Shown one piece after another: positions 5,452 to 59,860 of a DNA stretch of 64,000 nt (position 1 is its first letter; every line of letters begins with the position of its first letter). The notes under the pieces were generated by a model, which did no database searches, was not told the origin of the DNA, and saw only the letters and a list, made by a program, of their open reading frames with translations. Made by a program: the position numbers and the translations under genes. Origin of the DNA: Dehalobacterium formicoaceticum (GTDB taxonomy: Bacteria > Bacillota > Dehalobacteriia > Dehalobacteriales > Dehalobacteriaceae); assembly GCF_002224645.1 (NCBI RefSeq), contig NZ_CP022121.1:2882501-2946500 (forward strand), in the 5' to 3' direction.

Positions 5452-6593
5452 TTATCTGGAATTTCTGATGCTGCCTTTCCATAAAGTTTTTTCTTCAAAA
5501 ATGATATTAAACTCTTTTTCAAACTTCTTGATTAAATGCTTTTCCTTTTCTGTGACCAAAGATAAAGCAATACCCTCTTTTCCGCTTCTGCCGGTTCTGC
5601 CCGCCCGATTCAGATACTCTTTTGCGTCTTTCGGTAAATCCAAATTAAAAATATGGGTCAATCCTTGAATATCCAGACCCCGAGCTGCAATATCCGAGGC
5701 AACCAAAAGTTGAATCTCCCCTTTTCTAAAGCCTGCCAAAGCGGATTTTCGTTCTTCTTTTGAGGCTTTGCCAAATAGGCCAAAAGCTTTATAATGATGA
5801 TATTGTAATTTTGCTGTGGCAACCTGGACATCTTCCGTGGAATTTAAAAATACAATCGCCTTAGTCGGTTGAATCGCAGCAACAAGTTTTCTTAACGTTT
5901 CTAATTTTTCTCTCCGCTCAACGGTAAAATACCAGTGGGTAATCGCAGGATTGATCAATTGCTTCTGATTAAGGCTGATCATCCTGATATCTTTCATAAT
6001 TTTGTGTGCGGCTTGAAGAGCTTTCTCATCCATATTTGCGGAAAAGACCATGATTTGACGGTCTCTCATAGTAGACTTAATGACATCCTGAACCGAGTTA
6101 AAATGCTCGGAATCCAATAAACGATCACCTTCATCAATCACAATGGTTTTAATGGTCTGAGCGTTAATTTTTCTCTTTTTAACAGTTCTAGAATTCTTAC
6201 CCCAGTCCCAACGATGATATGAGGCTTATCACGCAGCTTTTCTATTTGCCGGGCAATGTTCACGTTACCAATGATTGGAAGAGAGGTCATTGCTATCCCG
6301 GAATTTTCTCTTAAAATTTTGATCTCTTTGTCAATCTGCAGTGCCAGCTCATAGGTAGGTGCTAAAATGATAGCTTGCGTTTCCCTCTTTCCACAATCAG
6401 TTTTTTGAAACAATGGCAGCAGATAGGCCAATGTTTTTCCGCTTCCTGTAAATGATTGTCCGATCAGATCCTGATTTGCCAGTGCCAGAGGAATTGCTTC
6501 ACGCTGAATATCTGTGGGTTCAAGAATTTCTCTCATTTTTAAACCTGCGATCAGTTGGGGATTTAATCCTAATGCTTCGAATGAATACGACAT
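5452..6593 (-). pseudogene. DEAD-box RNA helicase, frameshifted
   Basis: ATP-dependent RNA helicase of about 380 residues, read in two frames. The N-terminal part (6593 down to about 6170) has the Q-motif region, motif I FTGSGKT, motif Ia PTYELALQ and a VGTGVRI in place of TPGR. The C-terminal part restarts in the -1 frame with KINAQTIKTIVIDEGDRLLD, motif III as SAN, IVFLNST, ASDIAARGLDIQG and the motif VI arginines in HIFNLDL...RAGRTGRSG. The two parts join without a gap at an A-rich run (positions 6164-6180), so a single missing base explains the break. Motif II is DEGD rather than DEAD and motif III SAN rather than SAT. A good AGGAG precedes the ATG. It may be a sequencing error in a homopolymer or a true frameshift. 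Confidence 0.85.
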
Positions 6594-14271: not shown

Positions 14272-17200
14272 TTATCTCATTTTATCTAAAAGATTAAAAG
14301 CCTTTTTTACCCATCTAATTATATCGGGATCATTTCCAATTGTTTTCGATAGATTTGTTAAATCATCAATTGAATTAACATAAATCTTTTGTGGTCCGCC
14401 TTTACCTTTAATTTGTATGTGAACATTACCAGTACTCTTACCTGTTGGCATCTCCATATCAACTCTAACTTTGTTACCCCTTATCTCCTTGTTACCCAAT
14501 GTTCGCGAATTTCCGCCAGTAAATCCATTATTATTAGCCATCCCAATTAACATTTTATTAAATGCTACATCAGAATTGTCTCCACCTTGCCCAGCTTTCC
14601 CACTAACACCTCCTAAAAATACGTCAAAAATCACAAATTCTGCAGTTTTGCTAGCACCTGTCTTAATTGGATGGTCAGCTGCGAATCTTATTTGGTCGGC
14701 CTCATATTCCATGGCAGTTTGAATTGCTACTTTTTCTGAATTAGTAATTATTCCCCTTTTATATGCTTTTTCAGCATCCCACCAAAAATCGCTATAAATT
14801 TTTATTGAATCTTGAACATCCTGGTGATATTTTCCGTCATCTGCCTTTTTAAAGCCTGTCGGATCACTATAATTAATAGGATCATTTTCACAATAGGTGT
14901 ACAGATTCAAACTCAATGGGTTTGTAATACTACCCTCGTAGGAATCCTCCGCTATAAACCGCCCAATACTCGGATCATAATACCTTGACCGGAGATAATA
15001 GTTCCCAGTCTCATCATCATAGTATTCCCCGGCATACCTTATCGGGTTTGATATTTGTTCAGTCTTATTCAGAATATTGCCCCATTCATCATAGGTATAA
15101 CTGTTTTTTATGTTACCGTTTTCATCTACTACTTGCACCACATCTCCGTGACCATTATATAAGTAATAGTAATATGTTCCATTTATCTTCCTTGCTAATG
15201 GCTGATGTCCCCATACATTTTGAGCTGTCACTTGGCCTGATGCATTGCCCTCGGCGATTACCCTTCCATTGTAATCACTGTAATATTGTACCGTTTCCGT
15301 TGGACCGGTCTTTTTACTTCGTATTCCCTCCGGTTTATACTCATAACTGTATGTCTTGGTCCCGGTAACAAAGGTGTCCTGCCTGTCAAATGGATCATAG
15401 GTAAATGTTCCCGTTATTTCATTTTCAAAGGGTAAATTTCCTGTTACAAACTCCCGATTCCCCCGGCTGTCATAACTATATTTGGTAAGACCATTGCTGT
15501 TCGTAATCTCTTCCAAGCGATTCAATTGATCATAATCATAGGTGACGGAGCTTCCGTTATTATTTGCCGTCACGATATTTCCATTATAATCATAGCTGTA
15601 ACTATAGCTGGAAATGACTGTGGTTCCTTTTTTATTTACGATTCCTGTTAATCTGTTAAGATCATCATAGGTAAAGTCAGTAGTTATCAAGGATCCGGGG
15701 TAAACTATTCTTTTAATCATGCCGTCGTTATAATACTGATAATCAAATACCTTGCCGTCAACGGTTACTTTATCCAGCCTGTTAAGGGTGTCATAATCAT
15801 AATCCGCCGCTAAAAGAAATGGGTCTGTGATCCGGGTGTTGCTCCCGTTATTGTCATATGCATATTGGGTAATGATATTGCCCGGCCGGCTTTCTTTTTT
15901 TAACCGTCCATTATCATAGTATTCATAGGATGTCGTTCCGCTGCTGTCAGTAACTGTTCTGATATTTGTAATATCATTGTAAGTATATACCATGCTTTCG
16001 CCGCTGCTGCTTTCACTTAAAATTCGGTTTCTGGAGTCATATGTATAAAAGGTTTCCCTGCCTGTTCGGTCAATTGCCTTTTCCAGGTTCCCCCCGTGAT
16101 CATAAATATAGTACTCCGTCTTTTGATTGGGGTCTGTTGCTGCAATCAGACGCCCTAATTCATCATAATATTTTCGGGCAAAAAATCCATCCGGATAAAT
16201 GATTTTTGTTATATTGTTTTGGTGATCGTATTCATATTTTGTAGATTCTCCCCGGGCATTTTTTACTTCCGTCATTCTGCCTAAGGAATCATAGAAATAT
16301 TCGGTTTGATTCAGATTTGGATCCTTAACATATTTTAAATTACCCATGTAGTCATAACTATAGTAATTATTCACCGCTATACTATTTAGCATTGATGTTT
16401 CCTGAGTTACATTCCCCAGCTTATCATGGTATTCAATTGTCAGATCCTGTTCCTCGTTAATAATTATTTTTTTTCGCTGAACATCATCATAAACAATTTC
16501 ACTATATGTAAGATCGGGGTTAATAATTTTAATGATCCGGTTAAAAATGTCATATTGATATTCATTTTTATTCCCTTTGCCGTCCTCCATCCAATCCCTT
16601 TGAAAGAATAGGTTATAATGATATTCATTTATGGTAACCCATGTCCCATTTTGCTTCTCCTGCTCTTTAATCAAATTACCAAGCCCATCATAGATATTCC
16701 TTTTTTGATAGCCATTTTCCATTGTCGCTGTAACAATATTAAGGACATCATCATAGACAAGAACCTGTTCTGTTGCATCAGGATTAATGATTGCAGTCAG
16801 CCTTCCAAGGTTATCATATTCATATTGAGTATGATTGTCTGCTCCATCCCAGTAATCCGATACTCTGCCTGTATTAAAATCATAATCATAATTTTCTTCA
16901 ATTGTTGCTTTATTTCCTTTATAATCTGTGGTTTCTACAGATATCCCGGTCAGGTATCCTTTATCATACGCCGGACTATAGGTATAATTCGTTATTATAT
17001 CTGTTCCGTCAGCTTTGGATGTCGTTTCTACAATAAGGTTCCCATTGTCATCATCGTAACCATAATCGGTTATGATTGACTCATCTGCACCATTTTGTAT
17101 TAGTATTTGCTTCTTTCGCTCCATATTACCGGTCTCATGGTCTATGGTAAACTCCGTTCTTTGTTCGGTTTCAGCGTCCATGAAGCTGGACATGCTGGTC

Positions 17201-19761
17201 ATGATATGAAATTTGTTGTCATAGGTATATTCAGTTTGATGTCTGTATGGATCGGTAACGGTTAAAAGATCCCCAAATGAGTTATAGTTCCAGCTGGTTT
17301 CAATTGTGTCTGAATTACCTGATTCATTTAATTTTTTTACTTTCTCTTTTGATAGCAATTGATTCGAGTCATATTCGTATATATATTCTCTAAGCAAGGT
17401 AGTACCATTTTTCTTGACTGTTTTTTTCGTTAACAAGTGTTTGCTGTTAAAGTAGTATTCTGTCTGGGTATTATTGGCATCTGTTTCCAGAACCCGGTAA
17501 GTGAAGGTATCCGGCAGCTCTTTCGGATCCGGATATGTCGGATAACCGCTATACTCCCCATTATAGCTGTAATTAATTGTGTTGTAAGCCAGACTGCTTT
17601 GTTTATCCTCACGTTTAATTACCCGATAATATTCGTAGGAACCCTCGTTGCCGAAATTACCTACTGCTTTTTCAAAGGTATATTCCGTTGATGCCGATGT
17701 GGGGTAAGTTACTTTCCCAAGGTTGGCATAAATATTCTGCTCACCCCTGTATGTTTTGCTGAAAAAGGTAAATTTACCTGTGTCATAGGTATAATCAAAG
17801 CTGGTCTCTCTGCCTTTTTGGTCTTTAATTTTTTTCAAAACATATTCACCTGACTTGTTAGGTACAGGATCTAAGATACATTCAATATAAGTATTATCAG
17901 GACAAGTTATTTTTATTGTCTTTCCCGGAGATGTTGATCGGGAATTAATGGTTACAACCCTGCCCAGAGTATCGGTAATTTTTGAGATAACAGGGTGATC
18001 GTTAATCGGGGAATGTTCAAATTTAATGGTATTGCCATAACGATCTTTAATGCCAAGATACCGGCCGTCTTTGGCAAAATATTCTCTGGCCCCATTTTTA
18101 TGTATTAAAACATAGTATGAATTCTTTTGTCCATTGGAAAAGTTGCCGTAATCCCTTTCAATTTTTATGTCCTCAAGATAATAATCTACCAGATTGTTTG
18201 ATGATCCTGGGGAAATATCTATCTCGTATACACTCCCATCGCCCAAATGCAAGTACTCCTTATCCCCATCATCTTCAATGGATGGAAATCCATAGGACCA
18301 CCCGGAACCCAAGTTATTGTTTAATTCTGCAAAAGTATCGGCTTCCGTATCATTATAATAATCCCACTCAACATCTGAGACAACCTGATATATATCTCCA
18401 TAGTAGTCTACAATAAGATCGGTACCATCAGACCAATAATCATAAACAATGTATGATTGATCTACCCAATTATTTAAGGCAGTTTCCGCTTGAGACAAGG
18501 TATCATATATTCCAATTAATTGGTATTCAATATCTGCCTGATTATAGTCCCCTGTTCCAATACCATCACGGTAATAATAACCTTCAGCGCCACCCCATAC
18601 CTCGTATTGATAAGAATAATCTATCTCAGCGCCGCATACAGGCTTATATAAACTTGATTGTGCTGAATCATACTGGAGAGTGATATTTAGGTCTAAGCCG
18701 TTTCTCCCCGGTAAATCAAGCAGGTTTACATCATATTGCAGTGTCCCGTTATTTGCAACGATTTTCTCTTCTTGATTTGCTTGAAAATGAAAGGGTGATG
18801 TAAAATATCGATCAAATTGGATTTCACTCCCGCTCATCATTGAAGCTGTCCCATCAGAGCTGTTCTGAATAAATTCGTAATAGAGAACCTTGTTTTTCAG
18901 ATCTTGGGGTTTAATTCCTTTTTCCTGTACGCCGTTTATAAGTTGCTCAAGATCCACGAAATAGTCATCGGCAAATTCTTTTAAGGTTTCAATATCCTCC
19001 GGCAGAAGTTCTTCATAGTTCTCTATATTCAAATCCTTCCGGGCTGTCCCATCTTTAATAATATCATTTACATCAAGTTCAAGGGCTTCTGCTGCAGCCA
19101 GCGCTTTTTTTATTTGATCCGTAGTATAGCCCTTCAAAAACAGGCCTTTGGCCTGTTCTGTTTTTATTTCATTACTTTTACTTGTACGAATTAAATGTTG
19201 AAATCTTCTCAATTCTTTGTTCAGTTCAACCAGATCATTGTTATTCAATAATAATTGAGCAGCTTCATCAATACTAAATTCAAATTCTTTTGTTATATTT
19301 GCAATTTTTAATGATTCCAACAGATTATAACCATCTTGCGCACAATTAGTCATTGTGCTGGGATCCACACCAAAAAAATCACAAATAATTTTCTTTTCTT
19401 CATCTGTTGCTTCACTAAAGCTTTTTAACCGCGATAATAATTGGAAAGCTGATAAAGAATCATTTGGTTGCTGTTGCTCTTCCTCATCTACTATTTTTGT
19501 TGGCTCCTCATCTTTTATTGGCTCTTCTTCAAACGGTTCAGCTTCTTTTTCCACATTGTCATCTGTTAGCTGATCGGTATCATCTGTAATATTCTCAATG
19601 ATATTTTCCTCGTCACTATGCACTGGTTCATTTACACTATTCTCTATTGTATCAACTGCATCTTCCATAGGAGTCATTCCAGAATTCTCTGCCAATGCCG
19701 GAACAATGCCGTATGATAAGAATACCAGCAATATTAATAAGCATAATAGATCTTTTCGCAT
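14272..19761 (-). CDS. RHS/YD-repeat polymorphic toxin
   Basis: Secreted 1829-residue protein. A Sec signal peptide (MRKDLLCLLILLVFLSYG, cleaved near ALA-ENS) is followed by an acidic Asp/Glu-rich linker (about 30-100), a helical region to about 310, then dozens of YD repeats of the GxxxxYxYDxxGRL kind to about 1560. The RHS core ends with YYYLYNGHGDVVQVVD, the GRFIAEDSYEG segment and NDPINYSDPTGF at about 1633, beyond which the sequence is variable in this family. The last 197 residues are the presumed toxin: an Ala-rich helix, a Gly/Asn-rich linker and GNKVRVDMEMPTGKSTGNVH, similar in style to BECR-fold RNase toxins. Gram-positive RHS proteins (WapA type) mediate contact-dependent inhibition. 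ATG with GAGG 9 nt upstream; followed by a putative immunity gene. Confidence 0.88.
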   Translation of the reverse strand: MRKDLLCLLILLVFLSYGIVPALAENSGMTPMEDAVDTIENSVNEPVHSDEENIIENITDDTDQLTDDNVEKEAEPFEEEPIKDEEPTKIVDEEEQQQPNDSLSAFQLLSRLKSFSEATDEEKKIICDFFGVDPSTMTNCAQDGYNLLESLKIANITKEFEFSIDEAAQLLLNNNDLVELNKELRRFQHLIRTSKSNEIKTEQAKGLFLKGYTTDQIKKALAAAEALELDVNDIIKDGTARKDLNIENYEELLPEDIETLKEFADDYFVDLEQLINGVQEKGIKPQDLKNKVLYYEFIQNSSDGTASMMSGSEIQFDRYFTSPFHFQANQEEKIVANNGTLQYDVNLLDLPGRNGLDLNITLQYDSAQSSLYKPVCGAEIDYSYQYEVWGGAEGYYYRDGIGTGDYNQADIEYQLIGIYDTLSQAETALNNWVDQSYIVYDYWSDGTDLIVDYYGDIYQVVSDVEWDYYNDTEADTFAELNNNLGSGWSYGFPSIEDDGDKEYLHLGDGSVYEIDISPGSSNNLVDYYLEDIKIERDYGNFSNGQKNSYYVLIHKNGAREYFAKDGRYLGIKDRYGNTIKFEHSPINDHPVISKITDTLGRVVTINSRSTSPGKTIKITCPDNTYIECILDPVPNKSGEYVLKKIKDQKGRETSFDYTYDTGKFTFFSKTYRGEQNIYANLGKVTYPTSASTEYTFEKAVGNFGNEGSYEYYRVIKREDKQSSLAYNTINYSYNGEYSGYPTYPDPKELPDTFTYRVLETDANNTQTEYYFNSKHLLTKKTVKKNGTTLLREYIYEYDSNQLLSKEKVKKLNESGNSDTIETSWNYNSFGDLLTVTDPYRHQTEYTYDNKFHIMTSMSSFMDAETEQRTEFTIDHETGNMERKKQILIQNGADESIITDYGYDDDNGNLIVETTSKADGTDIITNYTYSPAYDKGYLTGISVETTDYKGNKATIEENYDYDFNTGRVSDYWDGADNHTQYEYDNLGRLTAIINPDATEQVLVYDDVLNIVTATMENGYQKRNIYDGLGNLIKEQEKQNGTWVTINEYHYNLFFQRDWMEDGKGNKNEYQYDIFNRIIKIINPDLTYSEIVYDDVQRKKIIINEEQDLTIEYHDKLGNVTQETSMLNSIAVNNYYSYDYMGNLKYVKDPNLNQTEYFYDSLGRMTEVKNARGESTKYEYDHQNNITKIIYPDGFFARKYYDELGRLIAATDPNQKTEYYIYDHGGNLEKAIDRTGRETFYTYDSRNRILSESSSGESMVYTYNDITNIRTVTDSSGTTSYEYYDNGRLKKESRPGNIITQYAYDNNGSNTRITDPFLLAADYDYDTLNRLDKVTVDGKVFDYQYYNDGMIKRIVYPGSLITTDFTYDDLNRLTGIVNKKGTTVISSYSYSYDYNGNIVTANNNGSSVTYDYDQLNRLEEITNSNGLTKYSYDSRGNREFVTGNLPFENEITGTFTYDPFDRQDTFVTGTKTYSYEYKPEGIRSKKTGPTETVQYYSDYNGRVIAEGNASGQVTAQNVWGHQPLARKINGTYYYYLYNGHGDVVQVVDENGNIKNSYTYDEWGNILNKTEQISNPIRYAGEYYDDETGNYYLRSRYYDPSIGRFIAEDSYEGSITNPLSLNLYTYCENDPINYSDPTGFKKADDGKYHQDVQDSIKIYSDFWWDAEKAYKRGIITNSEKVAIQTAMEYEADQIRFAADHPIKTGASKTAEFVIFDVFLGGVSGKAGQGGDNSDVAFNKMLIGMANNNGFTGGNSRTLGNKEIRGNKVRVDMEMPTGKSTGNVHIQIKGKGGPQKIYVNSIDDLTNLSKTIGNDPDIIRWVKKAFNLLDKMR

Positions 19762-19815: not shown

Positions 19816-22417
19816 TTAATTCATCCTTTGTTTTGATATCAAATTACCTTCATCATCATACAGATAGTTCCATATAACCTGACCATTACGAATAATTGAA
19901 GTCAGACGGTTATTAGCATCATACTGATAAGTTACACCGCCCATCTTTACCTGTACTGGCAATAGCCGGTTATATATCGTCCCGTCACCAAGCTGCCCAT
20001 AGTAGTTATGGCCCCATCCCCAAATAGTTCCATCGCTTTTTAGACCAAGAGAATGACCATATCCCGCTGATATCGCCACTAAATTACTTAGATTCATTAC
20101 TTCTACCGGAGGATTTCTTGGCGATGTGGTTCAGTCTCCAATTTGACCGTAATAATTCATTCCCCAAGCGTAAGCTTTACCATTGTCTTTTAACGCTAAA
20201 TTATGTTCTAACCCCCCGGATATTGCGGTCATGTCACTTAATGTAGGTACCTCTACGGGTACTGCTCCATCCCCTGACCAGCCCCAAAACCAAACCGATC
20301 CATCAGATGTGACAGACAGGGAATGACCATCATCGGCAGCAACCCCCACTACTCCGGTTAAACCTTCTATCTGTACCGGTGAATATCTGTTTGTTGTCGA
20401 ATTGTCGCCAAGCTGTCCTTCATTATTTTTTCCCCAAGACCAGATCGTTCCATCGCTTTTTAATGCTAAATTCCTTCCGCAATTGCTATAGCATTGGTTA
20501 GTCCTGATACTTGAACCGGAGTAAAATTGCAATCACATTGGTCAGTCCTGATACTTGAACCGGGGTATTTCTACTTGTTATTGTCCCATCGCCAAGCTGT
20601 CCGTAGCTATTGAATCCCCATGTCCATACTGTGCCATCACTCTTTAATGCTATGCTATGATGCAAACAAGCATAAACTGCAGTTATATTATTTAAACCTG
20701 AGACCTGGACAGGTACTGTCTTATTTTGCTTTGTTCCATCCCCAAGTTGACCATATTCATTACCGCCCCATGACCATACAATACCATCTTGTAATAAAAG
20801 GCTATGATTCATCCCTGCAGATATTTGTTTAGATTCATATCCCACAGTCGATTCAGTGAAAATCTGAACTTCTGGTTCTGTTGAATATGTCTCAGTAGTA
20901 TTTATGATACCGGTGCTCCCGTTTATGTCAATCACTTCATCATTAACAATACCTTTCACCGCATTTTCAACATTTATCTTACTGCTATTATAAGTTTTTC
21001 CTATTAGTGAAGACATCTTGTCAGAGAAATTAAGGATTTTACTTCTGATTTCATCTTTACTTAATTGTGAATTTTGTCCCAATAATAGTGCTATTTCTCC
21101 AGAAACAAAAGCTGCTGCCATTGAAGTTCCATCTTTAAAGCCCACATCGTTCCCCGGGATCGTACTTATAATGTTTTCTCCGGGAGCTGCAATATCCACA
21201 GAGGCTTGTCCATAATTTGAAAAAGCAGATAAAAACCCTTCATCGTTTATCGAAGCAACTGTTATTATATTATCTAAATCAAAGGAAGCAGGAAAAACTG
21301 ATTGTTTATCAATATCCCAACCATTATTGCCCGCCGCTGCTACAAAAATTAAGTTTGATTCTCTCATTACCCCTTTCAAGGCATTATTTTCGAAAGCAGA
21401 ACTCCAACTACAATTGGCAATCTGAGCTCCCATTTGAGAGGCATATTCTATTGCGTCAATAATGTCACTGGTGTAAGCCTCACCATCTGCAAAAACTTTG
21501 AGTGGCATAATCTTTGCCCCGGGAGAGATACCGGCAATTTCAGTTTCATTATCCTTCTCTGACCCAATTATTCCTGCAATATGTGTTCCGTGCCATTCAT
21601 TTTTACTCACATTCTGAACTTTATTGGAATTATCAGTAAAATTCCAGCCATTAACATCGTCAACATACCCATTGCCATCATCATCTATACCGTTACCTGC
21701 TATTTCCCCTTTATTTTTCCAAATATTATTTTCTAGGTCATAATGTGAAACATCAATACCGGTATCAAGCAGAGCAACAACTGCTCCCTGTCCTGTGCTT
21801 TCCCCCCAGGCAGGAACTACGTTAGCATCAAAACCATGTAATTTATCTCCCTGTAAAACAGGTTTCGCTTCGTTATTTTTAAGATCATTATTTTCTTCGT
21901 CAATTTCCTGATTTACAGGCTCTGTTTCCATATATATTGGATATTGGTTAAATAATCCCCATTGTTCCCCAAAATACATATCCTCGGAAGCCAAGCTCAA
22001 TTTATAATCGGGTTGAATAAACTCTATCTCTTCGTTAAGGGATATCTTATCTATGACCTTTTTAGGGTTAAGTTTCTTGGTGGTATATATCACTTCGATA
22101 TTTTTCTTTTTTGTTTTTTTGTAACTTTTAACCATGTCTTTCAGACTTCCGGATATTTTATCTTTACCTTGATCGTTGTTATTGTCTTTAAACTTAACAA
22201 TGAAGCGGTTAGTCCAAAATGCTTCGGGTACTTCCTCAGCTTGAATGTTCATTTGAAGATCTCGTAACTTCTCCACGTCATTTAATAATTTTTCCTGCTC
22301 AGCTGTTTTGTTGTCTTCAGTATTCAATTGTTCAACTGCAAATACAGAAATACTTGACATAATCAGGCTAAAAAGCACAATAATTATAAGAAAGTTTTTG
22401 CAAATACTATTTTTCAC
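19816..22417 (-). pseudogene. subtilase-RCC1-YD surface protein, broken by several lesions
   Basis: About 870-residue secreted protein split into three reading pieces. The first has a signal peptide, a pro-region, and a complete S8 protease domain with Asp218 (LLDTGID), His276 (WHGTHIAG), Asn364 (AAGNN) and Ser432 (GTSMAAAF). RCC1 beta-propeller repeats (ALKSDGTVWTWG...YGQLGDGT) begin near residue 530. Lesion one: near 20536 two near-identical 36-base stretches sit 44 bp apart, so a repeat was deleted and the frame lost. Lesion two: one base missing near 20484. Lesion three: in-frame TGA at 20131 where repeats predict Gly. The last piece ends in two YD repeats like the downstream RHS protein. 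The start is GTG at 22417 with AAGGAG 9 nt upstream; the TTG 18 nt earlier overlaps it. Confidence 0.85.
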
Positions 22418-22936
22418 CTTGGTCCTCTCCTTCAATTCTCGATTATATCTGATTGTTACGCTTTCAATCTAACGAATAATGACTAGGGTACCCACCCCTC
22501 TGTGTTACAATAGTTGTCAGGGAGCGAAAACAATCTTTTAAAATTTGAGGTAATTGATTATCATTAACTACTATTCATATTTTCTCTTTCTCCATCCACC
22601 GCAATTATCTTTTTAGTACTTTTTTAAGCATGTACACATATTTTTCCATCATCATGGATCCGCCATTCTTATTAATTATAAAAAACGCAATTTGTACAAT
22701 ATTTGACATTCGGCATTTACCATTGATTCCCTTTTATGAATTTACGACATATTTTGACAAATAATGATTATAATCGACATTTTCAACCAAGAGAACGTTT
22801 CCTTGATTTGCCCCTCTGATTTATGCATTATGCGCCATGCGCGCGATGCAAACAAGAAAAACCGGGCTAAAGTCCCAATGTAATAATGTTAAGAATAAGA
22901 CAGGGTAAATACTATATTCAAAATTTATCAGAAACA
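22418..22936. other. intergenic, no gene seen
   Basis: Upstream region of the subtilase-RCC1 gene and tail of the nuo operon. AT-rich, with CCGGGCTAAAGTCCC near 22861 as a possible short repeat. A minus-strand frame of 69 codons at 22821-23030 covers the terminators and is not considered real. Confidence 0.5.
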
Positions 22937-41421: not shown

Positions 41422-41621
41422 TCATTGAGGGAAATTTGCCTCTTTCATCATCTGGATAAATTCCTTTAAAATCCATGGATCATAATAGGTTCCGCTGTAA
41501 CCTGCCAAATCTTCCAGGGCTGCCTCTATAGACATGGCGCATTGGTACGCCCTGTTGGTGGTCATGGCATCATAACTGTCCACAATGCGTAAAATGCGCG
41601 CCCCCAAGGGAATTTCCTCAC
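41422..41621 (-). pseudogene. C-terminal piece of IS-split HD-GYP protein
   Basis: About 64 codons reading EEIPLGARILRIVDSYDAM then TTNRAYQ, the standard end of an HD-GYP domain (conserved DxYDAMTxxRxY). It continues in frame from the codon interrupted at 44294 when the IS21 element and one copy of the 6-bp duplication are removed. It lacks a start of its own. Confidence 0.93.
41616..41621. repeat. left target-site duplication of IS21 element
   Basis: CCTCAC here equals 44294-44299 and flanks the element directly. Confidence 0.92.
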
Positions 41622-41825
41622 TGTATTTGTCAACTTAAAATTAGGCCATATAGTCATTTAATTTTCGGCCACTAAGAAAAAAAAATTTAGTCGTTTCATA
41701 AGCATATTTAGTTTTCAAAGAGCATTGTTTCACGATGAATGCTAACGCGCTATCGCTTGTTACATCCTGTATAAATGTTTATCAAAAACATGATAAACCT
41801 TTATACAGGGTTATTGTTTTTTTCT

Positions 41826-42605
41826 TCATGCCAGTTGCTGTTGTTGTAACCACTCCTTCGTTTCTTTCATGCGGTACGAGTTTCCATTCATGTTGACGAT
41901 GTATGACTGATGCGTCAACCGGTCAATCATGGCCGCCGTCATCACGGGATCCTGAAAAATTTCACCCCATCGTTCGAAGGATAAGTTGGTTGTGATGATT
42001 GTCGATTTGCGACCAGCCCTCAGCGACAAATGGGTAAACAATAATTCAGATCCTTCCTTATCAAAAGATATATAACCCATTTCATCGGCAATAACCAAAT
42101 CATATTTTTCAAAGCGGTTCTGGAAGGCTCGAAGAGTTTGCTCTGCTCGGCATTCTTTAATCCGGTTAATGAGGAGGGGAACAGTTGTAAACCATACTTT
42201 ATATCCCTCCAGGCAGGCCTTTAAGCCTAGCCCAATACTCACATGCGTCTTGCCTGTTCCCGGGTTCCCCGCCAGAATAATGTTGCGCCCCTCCTGAATA
42301 AACTCTAATGTTTTCAGCTGCTTTAACTTCTTTTGGGCATCATCTGGCAAATCCGCGATGACCAAATCTTCAAGGTACTTTTTATGTGTAAATTCAGCCA
42401 GACGAATGCGATTATGCCGCGAGGCTTCCCGACGAGCATCACATTCCTTCTCCAGTAACTGCGCCAGAAATGCTTCATAACTGGCATCCTGCTGCGTTGA
42501 CTCCCGAACTTGCTCATCCAAATGCTTACGAATCATAGGGAGTCTCAGTTCTTTGCTATATTCCAATATCGCTTCCTTAAACGCCTTGCGCGGCGCGTTA
42601 CTCAT
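41826..42605 (-). CDS. istB: IS21 helper ATPase IstB
   Basis: AAA+ ATPase of 259 residues that loads target DNA for the IstA transposase. Walker A is AGNPGTGKTHVSIG near residue 112, Walker B LVIADEMGYIS near 170, and the sensor region ITTNLSFERWGEIF near 207. The DnaC-like fold with an N-terminal helical region is standard. Its ATG overlaps the istA stop (ATGA) with AAAGGAGG 7 nt upstream, so translation is coupled. Confidence 0.97.
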   Translation of the reverse strand: MSNAPRKAFKEAILEYSKELRLPMIRKHLDEQVRESTQQDASYEAFLAQLLEKECDARREASRHNRIRLAEFTHKKYLEDLVIADLPDDAQKKLKQLKTLEFIQEGRNIILAGNPGTGKTHVSIGLGLKACLEGYKVWFTTVPLLINRIKECRAEQTLRAFQNRFEKYDLVIADEMGYISFDKEGSELLFTHLSLRAGRKSTIITTNLSFERWGEIFQDPVMTAAMIDRLTHQSYIVNMNGNSYRMKETKEWLQQQQLA

Positions 42606-44182
42606 GCAACGTCCTCCTTTGCTTTTGGTGTATGGGTATCAAACATGTCATCGTACATGCGAAGCTGCTGTGCTGACCGCTCTACAATCTCTTTTCCCGT
42701 TTTCGAGAGATTTGGTTGAACAACAGGCATCGCGTCACGATTCCTAGCACAAAGCACTTTAATTTTATCCGTAGTCACTTGAGCCGGATGAATTTTCTCC
42801 AGCTCCCGAATAGCTTGCTCGACTTCCGCAAATGGGACATCGTCTCGAATATATTGCAATAGCTGTATAAATTCCTTGTCTTGTTTGGTATAATATGTTT
42901 CGTATATTTCTTTTATCCTTTTAGGAGCCTGCTGCCATGCCGCACTACCGGCAAATGCACCAGGTTTTTTCCTTAGCGTATCCAAATAATGATTCAGATC
43001 AAGCCGCCACTCGTGGTTGCCGGTTAATCGCACATGCTCCGCTACCAAGGATTCCTGATGGAAGCATCGCACCCGGGTCGCATATGCTTTAATCATGATC
43101 GATTCACCTACCAAATGATCCGGTACTGAGTAACGATTCTGATCAACGATGATGGTGGAATATTTGTTCACCCGTCCATAAATCACGCGAGCTGCATCAA
43201 ATGGTGGAAGGGTGGGCAGCAATGCGGGGCGCTCTTCTTCCAATCGTTCCTCCGCCGTCTGGCCGTTGTACTCATCATGGGACTTACGATTACGCTTAGT
43301 GCACACATCCTGCAAATATTGATTTGCCTCCTCCAGGGATTCAAATTCGTCCCGAAAAGCGAAGGCTTTTCGGCGAACGACCTCGACGCTTCGCTCCACA
43401 TGACCTTTTTCGTTGCCCTTGCGAATATTGCAAAACCGATACTGAAAACCATAGTAGAGCGACAATTGAAGCAATCCTTGCGTCGGCTCCTTCTCCGTTC
43501 CAATAAACCTTTTCACCGCGACTTTCATGTTATCGTACACCATGGTACGATACACTTGGCCGATATGCTGGAAAAACAGGGCGTGTGCTTCCTGAAAACA
43601 CTCTGTTGTTTGTTTGGTGAACAGATAAGCAAAGCGATAGTTCCCGTAAGCCGTTGTGAATACGGCCATCTGAAAAACTTGAAATTTTCCATTAATTTTT
43701 AGTTTAACCTCACCCCAATCAAATTCGCAAATGTCTCCAAGTTCATACAGAGCCTTAATAAACGCTTCCTTTGGTTTCCGTTCCAAGCTTCTAATGGTTC
43801 GAAGAACGGTACTGTAACTTAGTTGAGTACCCTCGGCTTCCAGTGCTTCAAAGATATCAATGGCTTTTTTTTGCTGCTTGTGCCGCCCCTGATTTCGCTT
43901 AGTTTCATTCTCGTCAAGATAGAACTGGATCCTGTTCACAACCTCGTCAGTCATTTTTCTTTTGGGTCGAATGCCCACAGTATACTTGGGGGCAGAAGTG
44001 AGGGTGTCGACTAGTGCCTGGATATCTGCCGACCCGCTCGACAATAATTGCTGTCTCCCTTCCTCATATTGTCCAATGTACTTTCCTACGGTGTCCCGAT
44101 TGATCCCTGTTATTTTCGCAATTTCCCGGCGCGATTTCCCTTCATGAATATGCATCATTAAAATTTGTTGCTTGATGTTCAT
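42602..44182 (-). CDS. istA: IS21 transposase IstA
   Basis: DDE transposase of 526 residues. An N-terminal helix-turn-helix (SRREIAKITGINRDTVGKYI) for end binding is followed by an RNase H-like integrase core: first Asp in CEFDWGEVKL, second in MVYDNMKVAV, Glu in KGNEKGHVERSVE. A C-terminal Mu-type beta-barrel domain (KYSTIIVDQNRYSVP) follows. Start ATG at 44182 with GGGAGAG 9 nt upstream. It appears intact. Confidence 0.97.
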   Translation of the reverse strand: MNIKQQILMMHIHEGKSRREIAKITGINRDTVGKYIGQYEEGRQQLLSSGSADIQALVDTLTSAPKYTVGIRPKRKMTDEVVNRIQFYLDENETKRNQGRHKQQKKAIDIFEALEAEGTQLSYSTVLRTIRSLERKPKEAFIKALYELGDICEFDWGEVKLKINGKFQVFQMAVFTTAYGNYRFAYLFTKQTTECFQEAHALFFQHIGQVYRTMVYDNMKVAVKRFIGTEKEPTQGLLQLSLYYGFQYRFCNIRKGNEKGHVERSVEVVRRKAFAFRDEFESLEEANQYLQDVCTKRNRKSHDEYNGQTAEERLEEERPALLPTLPPFDAARVIYGRVNKYSTIIVDQNRYSVPDHLVGESIMIKAYATRVRCFHQESLVAEHVRLTGNHEWRLDLNHYLDTLRKKPGAFAGSAAWQQAPKRIKEIYETYYTKQDKEFIQLLQYIRDDVPFAEVEQAIRELEKIHPAQVTTDKIKVLCARNRDAMPVVQPNLSKTGKEIVERSAQQLRMYDDMFDTHTPKAKEDVA

Positions 44183-44293
44183 TGTGATCATCTCTCCCAG
44201 CCCCTACCTGTTGAATTTCCTCTCAAGTAGGTTAATCTATTGTGGCCGGTTTTTCAATGACTACGGTGGCCTACTATTAGATTACCATAGACA

Positions 44294-44299
44294 CCTCAC
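44294..44299. repeat. right target-site duplication of IS21 element
   Basis: CCTCAC, identical to 41616-41621. Confidence 0.92.
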
Positions 44300-45740
44300 C
44301 TTTGATCCCTTCCGGATATCCTGTCCCATCAAAATTTTCATGGTGGTAACAAATAATATCCGCTAAAATATTCAAAGATTTAAGGGGTGCAATAATATCT
44401 GCCCCCCACCCGGGATGGAGACGAAACAATTCCCATTCCTTCTTGGTAAGCTTACCTTGTTTATTTAAAATTTCCCGGGGAATTTCCATCTTACCGATAT
44501 CGTGAAGTAAAGCCCCGGAGGTAATTTGCTGGATCAATAATCCCTCTAATTCCAGACGCAGAGCCAGTCTTTTGGCCAGATCCATGACTCGGAGAGAATG
44601 ACCATAAGTATAATCATCTTTGGCATTGATAATCATGGTAAAAGCGCTGATGGAATTAAAGAGTTCCTTTTCTTCATCCTTTAAGAATAAGGAGATTTGA
44701 TCAAAATCAGAGTAGTAGCTTTCGACCCGGTTTTTGCTGATAAATTTGGCTCGATACAAAGCTTCATCAGCCTTTTTGATTAGTTTTTCTCTATTAAGTG
44801 CATGGAGAGGGTAAGCTGCTACCCCAATAGAGATAGTCAGCCTTCCTTGGGGTAAGATCTCAGCTCCATAAAAAACATGATTTTGAATCTTTTGGTTCAG
44901 CTCTTCCCCTACAGCTTTTCCCTGTGCCAAATTAATTCCAGGTAAAATCACGGCAAATTCCTCACCGCCGTATCGGGCACAAAAGCCTCTTTCTCCGATG
45001 GTCTCCTGAAATATTTGGGCCAAATCGCAGAGAACCTTATCCCCTTCCTGATGTCCGTAAGCGTCATTATACTGTTTGAAATAATCAATATCCAGCATCA
45101 TTAAAGTTAGGCAGGAATCCTTTTTACTTGCTTTTTTGATTTCCTGCTTTAAAATACTTTGAAAACTGCGATGATTAAAAATATCCGTTAAACCGTCATG
45201 AGTGGCCAGACGTTCCAACTCATTGCGGTAAGCAAATTCATTTTCCGCCAGATTACCTAATAGCCAAGCCAGTAAAAAGATAACGCCGGCGAGGACAATA
45301 TCTATATCCAGTGTAATAAATTGGTGGGCATAACTGCTGGTAAACAAGGGCACGCACGAAACTAAGGCAAAGAAATAAGCAGTTCGCACTCCATACTTCA
45401 GGGCCATGGTAATGACCGGCATAAATAAAACGATTTTAAACAGGGACTCCTGCTCCTGGATTAAAAAATATCCCACCACTCCGATATAAAAGGTCATAAT
45501 GAGAAGATCCCAAAGAACAATGTAATGGGGCACTTTTAAATCTATCTTTTGGAGCAAAGGACAGAGGGTAAATAAGAACACAAATATGAAGAGATTTCCT
45601 TTATGAAATAATATATTATCGAAAGATAAATTAAACACTCTAAATAATAAAATTCCCGTCAATAAAAAAAAGAGAATTTGTGTTAAAATAATATATTTAT
45701 ATAAAAATTCATGATTTTTGATTTGGAAATATTTCATCAT
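44294..45740 (-). pseudogene. GGDEF/HD-GYP membrane protein, N-terminal part, split by IS21
   Basis: Predicted c-di-GMP enzyme carrying both a synthase and a hydrolase domain. Six transmembrane segments occupy about residues 15-180. The GGDEF domain (about 190-350) has the active signature GGEEF (RYGGEEFAVILPG). The HD-GYP domain (from about 375) shows HDIGKMEIP and HHENFDGTGYPEGIKGE, where the reading stops and runs into the IS for five codons. Removing the IS and one TSD restores a protein of about 545 residues with no frame change. The truncation removes only the last helix region, so partial activity cannot be excluded. Start uncertain: ATG pair at 45740 with a weak GGGAT upstream. Confidence 0.93.
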
Positions 45741-45877: not shown

Positions 45878-45912
45878 ACAAAAAAAGGGGCGGCCTGGAG
45901 CGCCTCTTTTTA
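45878..45912 (-). terminator. terminator of agr-like cassette
   Basis: GAGGCG and CGCCCC pair around CTCCAGGC with a flanking AAAAA/TTTTTTT. It lies about 50 bp past the agrD stop. Confidence 0.8.
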
Positions 45913-45961: not shown

Positions 45962-46084
45962 TTATTTCTGCAAGCTTTTCGGTACCTCCGGCTGATATCC
46001 CCAGAAAGCACATGCAAAAACAGAACTGGCACTGGCCAGAAGCATTAATAGGGAGGATAGGGCAATTAATAAAGTTTTCTTCAT
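45962..46084 (-). CDS. agrD: AgrD-like cyclic lactone autoinducer precursor
   Basis: A 40-residue precursor of a quorum-sensing cyclic peptide. It has a hydrophobic leader MKKTLLIALSSLLMLL followed by ASASSVFA, then the core CAFWG and the recognition tail YQPEVPKSLQK. The tail matches the clostridial AgrD consensus (C...[YF][EQ]PExPxxL). The Cys at residue 25 would form the thiolactone with the residue at 29 or 30. AgrB, encoded just upstream, would cut the tail and close the ring. The ATG has GGAGG about 10 nt upstream. Too short for most gene callers. The leader looks unusually like a Sec signal peptide (V-F-A before Cys). Confidence 0.88.
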   Translation of the reverse strand: MKKTLLIALSSLLMLLASASSVFACAFWGYQPEVPKSLQK

Positions 46085-46136
46085 ATTCTCCACCTCCATT
46101 CTCTTTAATCTGCCTGCTTTTAATTTCCTTTCTTGC

Positions 46137-46709
46137 TCAATGGGTATTAAAAACAGGAAAAAGGGTACATGATTGAATCAAAATCCCTACAGTCACTGCA
46201 ACCTTGATCGTTGTTGATTCCAGGCTTATGACCAACAGCAGCATCAAGAGTATAAAAAGAATCGATCCCAGTTTTAATCGTTTTTTTAATTTTAAGTCAT
46301 GAATGGGTTTGGCCGGGGAATCAACCGGAGCATAAAGGAATACCACAATCAGGGCAAAAACAAATGGCAGTATGAAGAATCCCATTGCCGGAGCTACCCT
46401 TTGAGACAATTGAAAACCAAGGGCAGAGGCCAGTCCGTATCCTAAGGAGCTGAAAAGCATACACTTAATAGGTGTGGCGGCATGTACACCGCCGGAAAAC
46501 CTGCGCAGCACACCTCCGGCCAGAGCAGTAATGGCTGCCGGCAAAGCCGCCCCAAAAAGTGCACCTACCAAGACGATCAGCACAAAACCGGTGATGGCCA
46601 ACAGGATATTATCAAGAGAATAGGCAATGACAGTTTCTTTTTCCTGATCCAGGTTGAGCTCCTGACCCAGATAACTGGCGATCCCCGTGCTTAATTTTGA
46701 ATAACCCAT
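46137..46709 (-). CDS. agrB: AgrB-like peptide-processing protease
   Basis: Membrane cysteine endopeptidase that processes AgrD and begins export of the cyclic peptide, 190 residues with about five to six transmembrane segments. The catalytic residues are present in GGVLRRFSGGVHAATPIKC: Arg70, His76 and Cys83, against Arg70, His77 and Cys84 in S. aureus AgrB. Start ATG at 46709 with GAAGGAAAG upstream; an in-frame ATG at 46745 lies inside the preceding gene. It starts one base after the preceding gene's stop and is followed by agrD 52 bp later. Confidence 0.93.
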   Translation of the reverse strand: MGYSKLSTGIASYLGQELNLDQEKETVIAYSLDNILLAITGFVLIVLVGALFGAALPAAITALAGGVLRRFSGGVHAATPIKCMLFSSLGYGLASALGFQLSQRVAPAMGFFILPFVFALIVVFLYAPVDSPAKPIHDLKLKKRLKLGSILFILLMLLLVISLESTTIKVAVTVGILIQSCTLFPVFNTH

Positions 46710-46710
46710 T

Positions 46711-47160
46711 TTATCTTTCCTTCCATATAAATCTTTTGATTCCATAAGCCAAGCCTAAAATAATGAAGATCTCCGGCCAACCGGTAACGATAATTAAAAA
46801 ATCGTTATTCTTTACCTCATCCATTGATAAGTTTAACAGGGATAATGTTAAAGAGCGGGAGCCTGCCTCTATAAATACAAGCATAAAATATGTAATTAGT
46901 ACTGTAGAAACGGAGCGCAGAACATCGATTTTTGCATAAACAGTCAAATAAAAGGTAAATAAGCCGACGATAATTAAAGTATGAACCCCAAAAGTGATGG
47001 GTAATAAACGAATCAAAAAGGTGGTAAAAGCCAAAAATACTCCGATAAGTGCAATTCTTGGCCATTCAAAATTAATCCGGGCTATGGCATAAGCTAACGC
47101 CACCAAAGCAATGTATTCAGGAATGCCATAAAAAATTAAACGAAAAACTGACATTTCCAT
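46711..47160 (-). CDS. small multi-pass membrane protein of agr cassette, unknown
   Basis: Protein of 149 residues with about five predicted transmembrane helices (SVFRLIFYGIPEYIALVALAY; IALIGVFLAFTTFLIRLL; TLIIVGLFTFYLTVYA; STVLITYFMLVFIEA; FLIIVTGWPEIFIILGLAY) and a short basic tail. I do not recognise it as a named family. Its topology and its place next to agrBD recall the N-terminal peptide-sensing domain of AgrC-type histidine kinases, but no kinase follows. Start ATG at 47160 with GGGGG 8 nt upstream. The stop is one base before agrB, so the three genes are one unit. A peptide receptor or an export helper are both possible. Confidence 0.8.
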   Translation of the reverse strand: MEMSVFRLIFYGIPEYIALVALAYAIARINFEWPRIALIGVFLAFTTFLIRLLPITFGVHTLIIVGLFTFYLTVYAKIDVLRSVSTVLITYFMLVFIEAGSRSLTLSLLNLSMDEVKNNDFLIIVTGWPEIFIILGLAYGIKRFIWKER

Positions 47161-47272
47161 ATTAGAAACCCCCATTATGTCATTTCACAAGGTGTTGTTT
47201 TAATACTTTATTCATCTTTTTCTCCTCTTTTTATCTTTTTCGACAGATTTTCCTGTATTCCTGCTTTTCTCC

Positions 47273-59565: not shown

Positions 59566-59634
59566 CTGAAAATCCCTGAAAATAGATATTTATAAACCGT
59601 TGATTGAGAATAGTAACATTAAAGCAGTTTATCT

Positions 59635-59860
59635 TCAGAGAGTCGCAGATGGTGGGATTGCGGCGATAATGTTTATTGTGAATGGACTCAAGAGGGCGAT
59701 GCAGAAATGATTTTAAAAGTATGCGAGCCGGGAGCTTCACCCGTTATCAAGGGAGCGTGTATGATTGTACACGAAATGAGGGGCGTATTTTACGCAATTT
59801 GGGTGGTACCGCAGAGATCATAGTCTTTGTCCTAAAATTTAGGATAAAGGCTTTTTTTAT
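59635..59860 (+). promoter_or_regulatory. tryptophan-type T-box riboswitch
   Basis: tRNA-sensing leader. Stem I carries AGAGAGTCG, CAGATGGTGG (AG-box-like) and GCGGCG, and the specifier loop GAATGGACTC presents the codon TGG (59683-59685), so uncharged tRNA-Trp is the predicted signal. The T-box sequence GGGTGGTACCGC lies at 59801-59812 and would pair with the tRNA acceptor end in the antiterminator. A terminator with stem AGTCTTTGTCCTAAAATTTA then GGATAAAGGCT followed by TTTTTT ends at about 59858. It controls the TrpB2-like gene 37 bp downstream. Confidence 0.92.
59822..59860 (+). terminator. T-box controlled terminator
   Basis: AGTCTTT/AAAGGCT plus TCCTAAA/TTTAGGA stem with a run of seven T. 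It forms when tRNA-Trp is charged. Confidence 0.9.

Follow-up and report, generated by a model that had tools for sequence, protein, structure and literature searches.

In this study, a cassette of three linked genes from Dehalobacterium formicoaceticum was found to represent what appears to be a genuine, widely distributed variant of agr signalling, in which the sensor is split and the output is mostly c-di-GMP; the output gene is damaged in this organism. The window denotes the whole stretch of 64,000 nucleotides that was analysed (contig NZ_CP022121.1, positions 2,882,501 to 2,946,500), and coordinates refer to it unless another locus is named. Judged from sequence, and with a probability of roughly two in three, a five-helix membrane protein, here called TM5, would sense the cyclic pentapeptide made by AgrBD and would signal to a separate enzyme, which in most cases sets the level of c-di-GMP.

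The genes for TM5, AgrB and AgrD lie in that order on the minus strand, from 47175 to 45962. TM5 (46711-47175, 154 aa), whose homology to the N-termini of GHKL kinases adjoining agrBD makes it the proposed detached peptide-sensor subunit, is separated by 1 bp from agrB (46137-46709, minus strand, 190 aa), the product of which matched Pfam PF04647 with an E-value of 2e-36 (125 bits; cut-off 23). A further 52 bp separate agrB from agrD (45962-46084, minus strand), which encodes a 40-aa signal precursor. The AgrB peptidase/exporter retains R70, H76 and C83, with a His-Cys spacing of seven residues, and an AgrD adjoins it, as belongs to an agr system. The coordinates, strand, gaps and sequences reported for this cassette in the initial annotation were all correct, as was the claim of intact Arg, His and Cys residues in AgrB. 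The expectation that routine annotation would miss AgrD was not borne out, as the precursor scored 39.5 bits against NCBIfam TIGR04223, about twice the cut-off of 19, and should therefore be found. A Rfam riboswitch search detected none at the locus, the only match being a distant T-box leader (59591-59837, plus strand), which precedes a gene for a protein similar to a tryptophan synthase beta-like enzyme. Matches from sigma-70 promoter and terminator scans were no more frequent than in shuffled sequence. Elsewhere in the window, a DEAD-box helicase seems to be encoded by two ORFs with a 4-bp overlap (5452-6593, minus strand; a frameshift or a real pair), and a large YD-repeat protein (14272-19761) is encoded downstream of a subtilase-like protein with RCC1-like repeats that is apparently frameshifted (20131-22435, minus strand).

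The predicted ring of the mature signal is CAFWG (45998-46012, minus strand), with VFA before it and YQPEVPKSLQK after it; its closure and cleavage are presumed. The conserved pattern C/S-x4-Y/H was present in 67 of 70 matched precursors. Directly before the ring, Ala was found in 55 of the 70, much as at a signal-peptidase site; the precursor of the window has VFA there. A Sec-like leader had been suggested for AgrD, and this is real in the lineage of D. formicoaceticum, where V/A-x-A stands before the Cys, but cassettes of the second order examined (the order of Romboutsia) often have a short, amphipathic leader with a similar ring region. The leader type is thus not diagnostic of the system.

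No AgrC kinase or AgrA regulator was detected among the ORFs around the window locus. The absence of this pair, as initially annotated, is accordingly true locally, while kinase and regulator sets occur elsewhere in the genome with other agrD genes. Three further agrB genes are present, one at a canonical AgrC/AgrA locus and two, near-identical to each other, at a locus with TM5, a GHKL kinase and a LytTR regulator; each of these agr loci carries its own, different AgrD. The second agr locus (L134, 5230-17002; 2262229-2274001 of the genome) comprises TM5, a split GHKL kinase of 308 aa and AgrB, followed by an insertion named IS66-like by eye, the near-identical second agrB, an AgrD with Ser for Cys and the LytTR regulator. 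The third (L135, 3510-8873) has a canonical AgrC, a LytTR AgrA and an AgrD with the core CICFIHQP, and its agrB lies about 2.5 kb off, beyond unrelated genes.

TM5 matched no Pfam or NCBIfam family in profile searches, and no relative was found in the PDB by sequence or by fold. Homologues were present in 10 named records, and at all 10 homologous loci of named genomes (including Formimonas, Dichloromethanomonas, Romboutsia and several MAGs) TM5 lay just upstream of agrB and agrD, sometimes as two tandem copies. A profile of 17 sequences (A1) matched 131 of 398 genomes of the phylum and 70 of 297 genomes of the second order. AgrB was present in 166 of the 398 phylum genomes and in 124 of the 131 that have TM5 (Fisher p 2e-56), so that co-occurrence with agrBD, named beforehand as a test for this membrane protein, was confirmed; 42 genomes had AgrB and no TM5 match. 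The TM5 gene is directly upstream of agrB and often overlaps it or ends within 30 bp of it. An AlphaFold2 model predicted five helices (pLDDT 92), and the residues P19, E20, R56, P59, G63, H65 and E103 are invariant. The positive-inside charge pattern would place the C-terminus inside the cell and the conserved R-x2-P-x3-G-x-H turn outside. The homologues, the profile matches and the model rule out a chance ORF.

The family also extends beyond these loci. A divergent TM5 branch (L182, L183 and L185-L188) lacks agrBD, showing that the family is not exclusively agr-linked, and its members possibly have a different ligand or role. In five of these six loci, a membrane protein like an ECF transporter S-component was observed at most about 300 bp from TM5. 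In Romboutsia maritimum (L019, 3197-6250), TM5-agrBD lies directly behind two tandem sporulation-like sigma-factor genes, and the same was seen at L158. No TM5 was found by tblastn in plasmid and phage records, and an IMG/VR match (L136) proved false. In a viral structure library searched with Foldseek, a 158-aa and a 165-aa phage protein were returned with a probability of 1.0 but an E-value of about 0.1, and the same search with the TM5 model returned a 429-aa phage protein named AgrB (probability 0.84). These phage proteins with a predicted TM5-like fold are BFVD entries A0A8S5S981, A0A8S5PKY4 and A0A8S5R960, and the long one named AgrB may be a fused kinase.

The relationship of TM5 to kinases was apparent from about 25 profile matches in the phylum search that fall in open frames of 440-496 aa. 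All 20 of the long proteins examined have an N-terminal TM5 (profile domain E-values from 1e-17 to 1e-23) and a C-terminal GHKL kinase, with SPOB_a and HATPase_c_5 matched by Pfam in the four that were searched, and they mostly adjoin agrB. Standalone and fused TM5 have P19, E20, R56, P59, F62, G63, H65 and E103 in common. Ten more loci, including one of the D. formicoaceticum genome, have a split form in which genes for a short GHKL kinase and AgrB come after a separate TM5. By homology, TM5 is the detached N-terminal sensor region of GHKL kinases found beside agrBD, and the fusions and common invariant residues lend support to the earlier suggestion of a kinase-free peptide receptor. Comparison of TM5 with the canonical AgrC sensor of the same genome gave a hhalign probability under 1%, with the AgrC side represented by a single sequence.

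The genes accompanying TM5 were surveyed at 109 standalone loci from two large Firmicutes groups (69 in the first set and 40 in the second order); these were drawn from the highest-ranking matches, so that the proportions favour forms like the query, and some loci end at contig ends. A gene for a GGDEF/HD-GYP protein, of the type of a c-di-GMP cyclase/phosphodiesterase, was found beside TM5 in 68 of the 109 loci, 66 of which also have agrB and agrD. In the first set, 37 of 69 loci had such a gene on the same strand, usually at a distance of 10-130 bp behind agrD, and all 37 had both agrB and agrD; in the best 40 loci of the second order it was present in 31, 29 of them with agrBD. In most of the remaining first-set loci a PAS/HisKA histidine kinase is found instead, which frequently bears the same 6-TM input domain. 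Cassette relatives with a GGDEF/HD-GYP neighbour are spread over dozens of bacterial families, and 79 of 85 standalone TM5 copies had a same-strand gene for a membrane signalling protein within 2.8 kb. As the D. formicoaceticum genome contains only 6 GGDEF matches, chance adjacency to TM5-agrBD is negligible.

The GGDEF/HD-GYP proteins and many of the HisKA kinases have a homologous 6-TM input domain in common. Of the 84 strongest matches to this domain in the phylum, 59 lay within 5 kb of a TM5 match, and at least six of the other strong matches adjoin an AgrB match. No fold relative of the domain was found in the PDB, and a relationship between it and TM5 was discarded, as hhalign found no similarity. 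In the TM5 tree, the GHKL-partnered forms constitute one clade (support 99), and GGDEF and HisKA partners alternate elsewhere; the partner type changed at least 13 times by parsimony, with at least 3 changes forced by well-supported branches. This alternation, as read from the sequences, fits a sensor that kept its place while the outputs were swapped.

The partner gene in the window, which follows agrD on the same strand and was overlooked in the initial annotation, is interrupted, and the membrane protein described as an orphan has its partner in this adjoining gene. The 5' part (44277-45740, minus strand) encodes the 6-TM input domain (about 45740-45201), for which no Pfam family match was obtained, the GGDEF domain and most of the HD-GYP domain, and ends at a premature stop inside an insertion element. 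Comparison with intact relatives placed the start at about 45740 rather than at the listed 45785. By tblastn, the HD-GYP domain breaks off at about 44298 and resumes at 41613, in a 3' remnant (41440-41615, minus strand) with 64-66% identity to intact relatives. The element between them (41622-44293; 2,672 bp) carries IstA (42602-44191) and IstB (41826-42605), has TG..CA ends and is flanked by a 6-bp target duplication, CCTCAC, at 41616-41621 and 44294-44299. We take it to belong to the IS21 family from the IstA/IstB pair, as judged from sequence, the TG..CA ends and a duplication in the range of 4-8 bp. The motifs RYGGEEF, HDIGK and HHENFDGTGYP all stand before the break, and most partners in other genomes retain GGEEF, HDIGK and HHExxDGxGYP. 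About 60 C-terminal HD-GYP residues are separated by the insertion, and D. formicoaceticum thus lacks a complete HD-GYP domain. Because the HD-GYP half is destroyed and the 6-TM and GGDEF parts remain, signalling in this organism has probably been lost or reduced to a cyclase-only output. Between agrD and the GGDEF gene is a gap of about 220 bp that contains a terminator-like hairpin (GAGGCG..CGCCCC with a T run; 45880-45912, minus strand). The hairpin is present in the lowest-energy structure, with a z-score of -3.5 for the whole 172 nt, and was not among the consensus terminator scan matches.

AgrB proteins cut AgrD, cyclise it and export the product, which is established chemistry of these families. 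In the proposed mechanism, AgrB would accordingly release a cyclic pentapeptide from AgrD, and the peptide would be sensed by TM5 at the outer membrane face, presumably near the invariant R-x2-P-x3-G-x-H turn. The signal would then pass laterally from TM5 to the separate membrane enzyme, through a membrane contact with the 6-TM input domain of the enzyme. The enzyme would be a GGDEF and HD-GYP protein in most cassettes, making the cellular c-di-GMP level the likely output, with the direction of its change left as a presumption, and a PAS/HisKA or GHKL histidine kinase in the others. A broader proposal, with the odds only slightly in its favour, is that split receptors of this type are widespread, TM5 serving as an exchangeable subunit that senses cyclic peptides and docks on a dedicated 6-TM domain, so that a single agrBD signal would, by a swap of partner, drive either a c-di-GMP cyclase/phosphodiesterase or a histidine kinase.

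Alternatively, the 6-TM domain carried by the GGDEF/HD-GYP and HisKA proteins might itself be the peptide receptor, with TM5 as its co-receptor, chaperone or inhibitor. The dedication of this domain to TM5 loci, its presence on different outputs and the confinement of GHKL-partnered TM5 to a single clade, with the 6-TM-partnered forms elsewhere in the tree, are in keeping with this. However, both the fused and the split GHKL kinases have TM5 and no 6-TM profile match, making TM5 the part common to all the receptors, and conservation concentrates in TM5, with 10 invariant columns in A1 (TM5) and none in A3; a 6-TM receptor is therefore considered unlikely. The position of TM5 directly upstream of agrB, often overlapping, would also suit an accessory of AgrD processing or of AIP export that works alongside AgrB. 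In Clostridium perfringens, agrBD shares a transcript with two hypothetical genes that lie upstream of it, and an agrB mutant was complemented only when all four genes were supplied together (PMC2706048), which might reflect such an accessory role or equally a promoter effect. Against this, TM5 is fused to kinases, and 42 genomes have AgrB and no TM5 match. TM5 also occurs without agrBD beside a kinase (L111, L112 and L084), and directly beside a GGDEF/HD-GYP gene at L151 (5092-7287) and L160 (3209-5438), with no agrBD within 5 kb. Such loci, of which the latter two are possibly receivers of signals made elsewhere, argue for a role in sensing and not in processing. The idea of an export partner, raised in the initial annotation, is disfavoured on these grounds, and an accessory function seems quite improbable.

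Conserved gene order may also occur without functional coupling, the c-di-GMP gene then being a passive neighbour, and in the window the hairpin between agrD and the GGDEF gene would allow separate transcription. This is very hard to reconcile with a gene order that recurs in two large groups and in many families, and with a partner type that has switched repeatedly while a signalling enzyme kept the same place. A split receptor, with TM5 as the sensing subunit, is thus the preferred reading.

If this reading is true, peptides secreted by anaerobic Firmicutes act, without a response regulator, on c-di-GMP, which as a messenger decides between motile and sessile life. To our knowledge, no autoinducing-peptide system acting directly on c-di-GMP enzymes was known before, and the split-receptor system would be the first. 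In the open-access subset of the literature, agrB was found together with GGDEF/HD-GYP or c-di-GMP in regulatory or review mentions only, with no such wiring described. Neither TM5 nor the 6-TM input domain has a Pfam match, which makes the system hard to detect in routine annotation.

The cassette resembles staphylococcal agr (agrBDCA) in its AgrB with Arg, His and Cys, in the five-residue ring of AgrD and in its homologous processing enzyme, but the sensor and kinase of AgrC are split or replaced, the output is usually a c-di-GMP enzyme and no AgrA is present at the locus. Many clostridia have agrBD and no evident receptor. Such 'receptorless' agrBD loci (C. difficile Agr1 and C. perfringens agrBD) likewise have no agrCA nearby, whereas the agrBD genes of the cassettes described here have genes for a sensor-like protein and an output enzyme as neighbours. 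The receptor of C. difficile Agr1 (AgrD1) has been described as unknown (PMC8534292, PMC10602386) and as 'elusive' (PMC10602386). TM5 and the output enzyme are testable candidates for the receptor system of such loci; as a sensor-like protein and an output enzyme travel with loci of this kind in many families, the receptor question is directly testable. The integral membrane input domains of the MASE type are similar multi-TM input regions on GGDEF proteins and kinases, and one kinase partner gave a sub-cut-off match to MASE6, but the 6-TM region of the window protein has no such assignment in Pfam and is linked to TM5 and agrBD. Only two quorum signals that are sensed directly, BDSF-RpfR and AI-2-dCACHE, appear in a 2022 census of c-di-GMP stimuli, and neither is a peptide (PMC8846402). 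These cyclases resemble the proposed system in being c-di-GMP enzymes that are direct targets of a quorum signal (PMC8846402); in those cases a fatty acid or a furanone is bound by the PAS or dCACHE domain of the enzyme itself, whereas here a ribosomal cyclic peptide would act through a separate membrane sensor.
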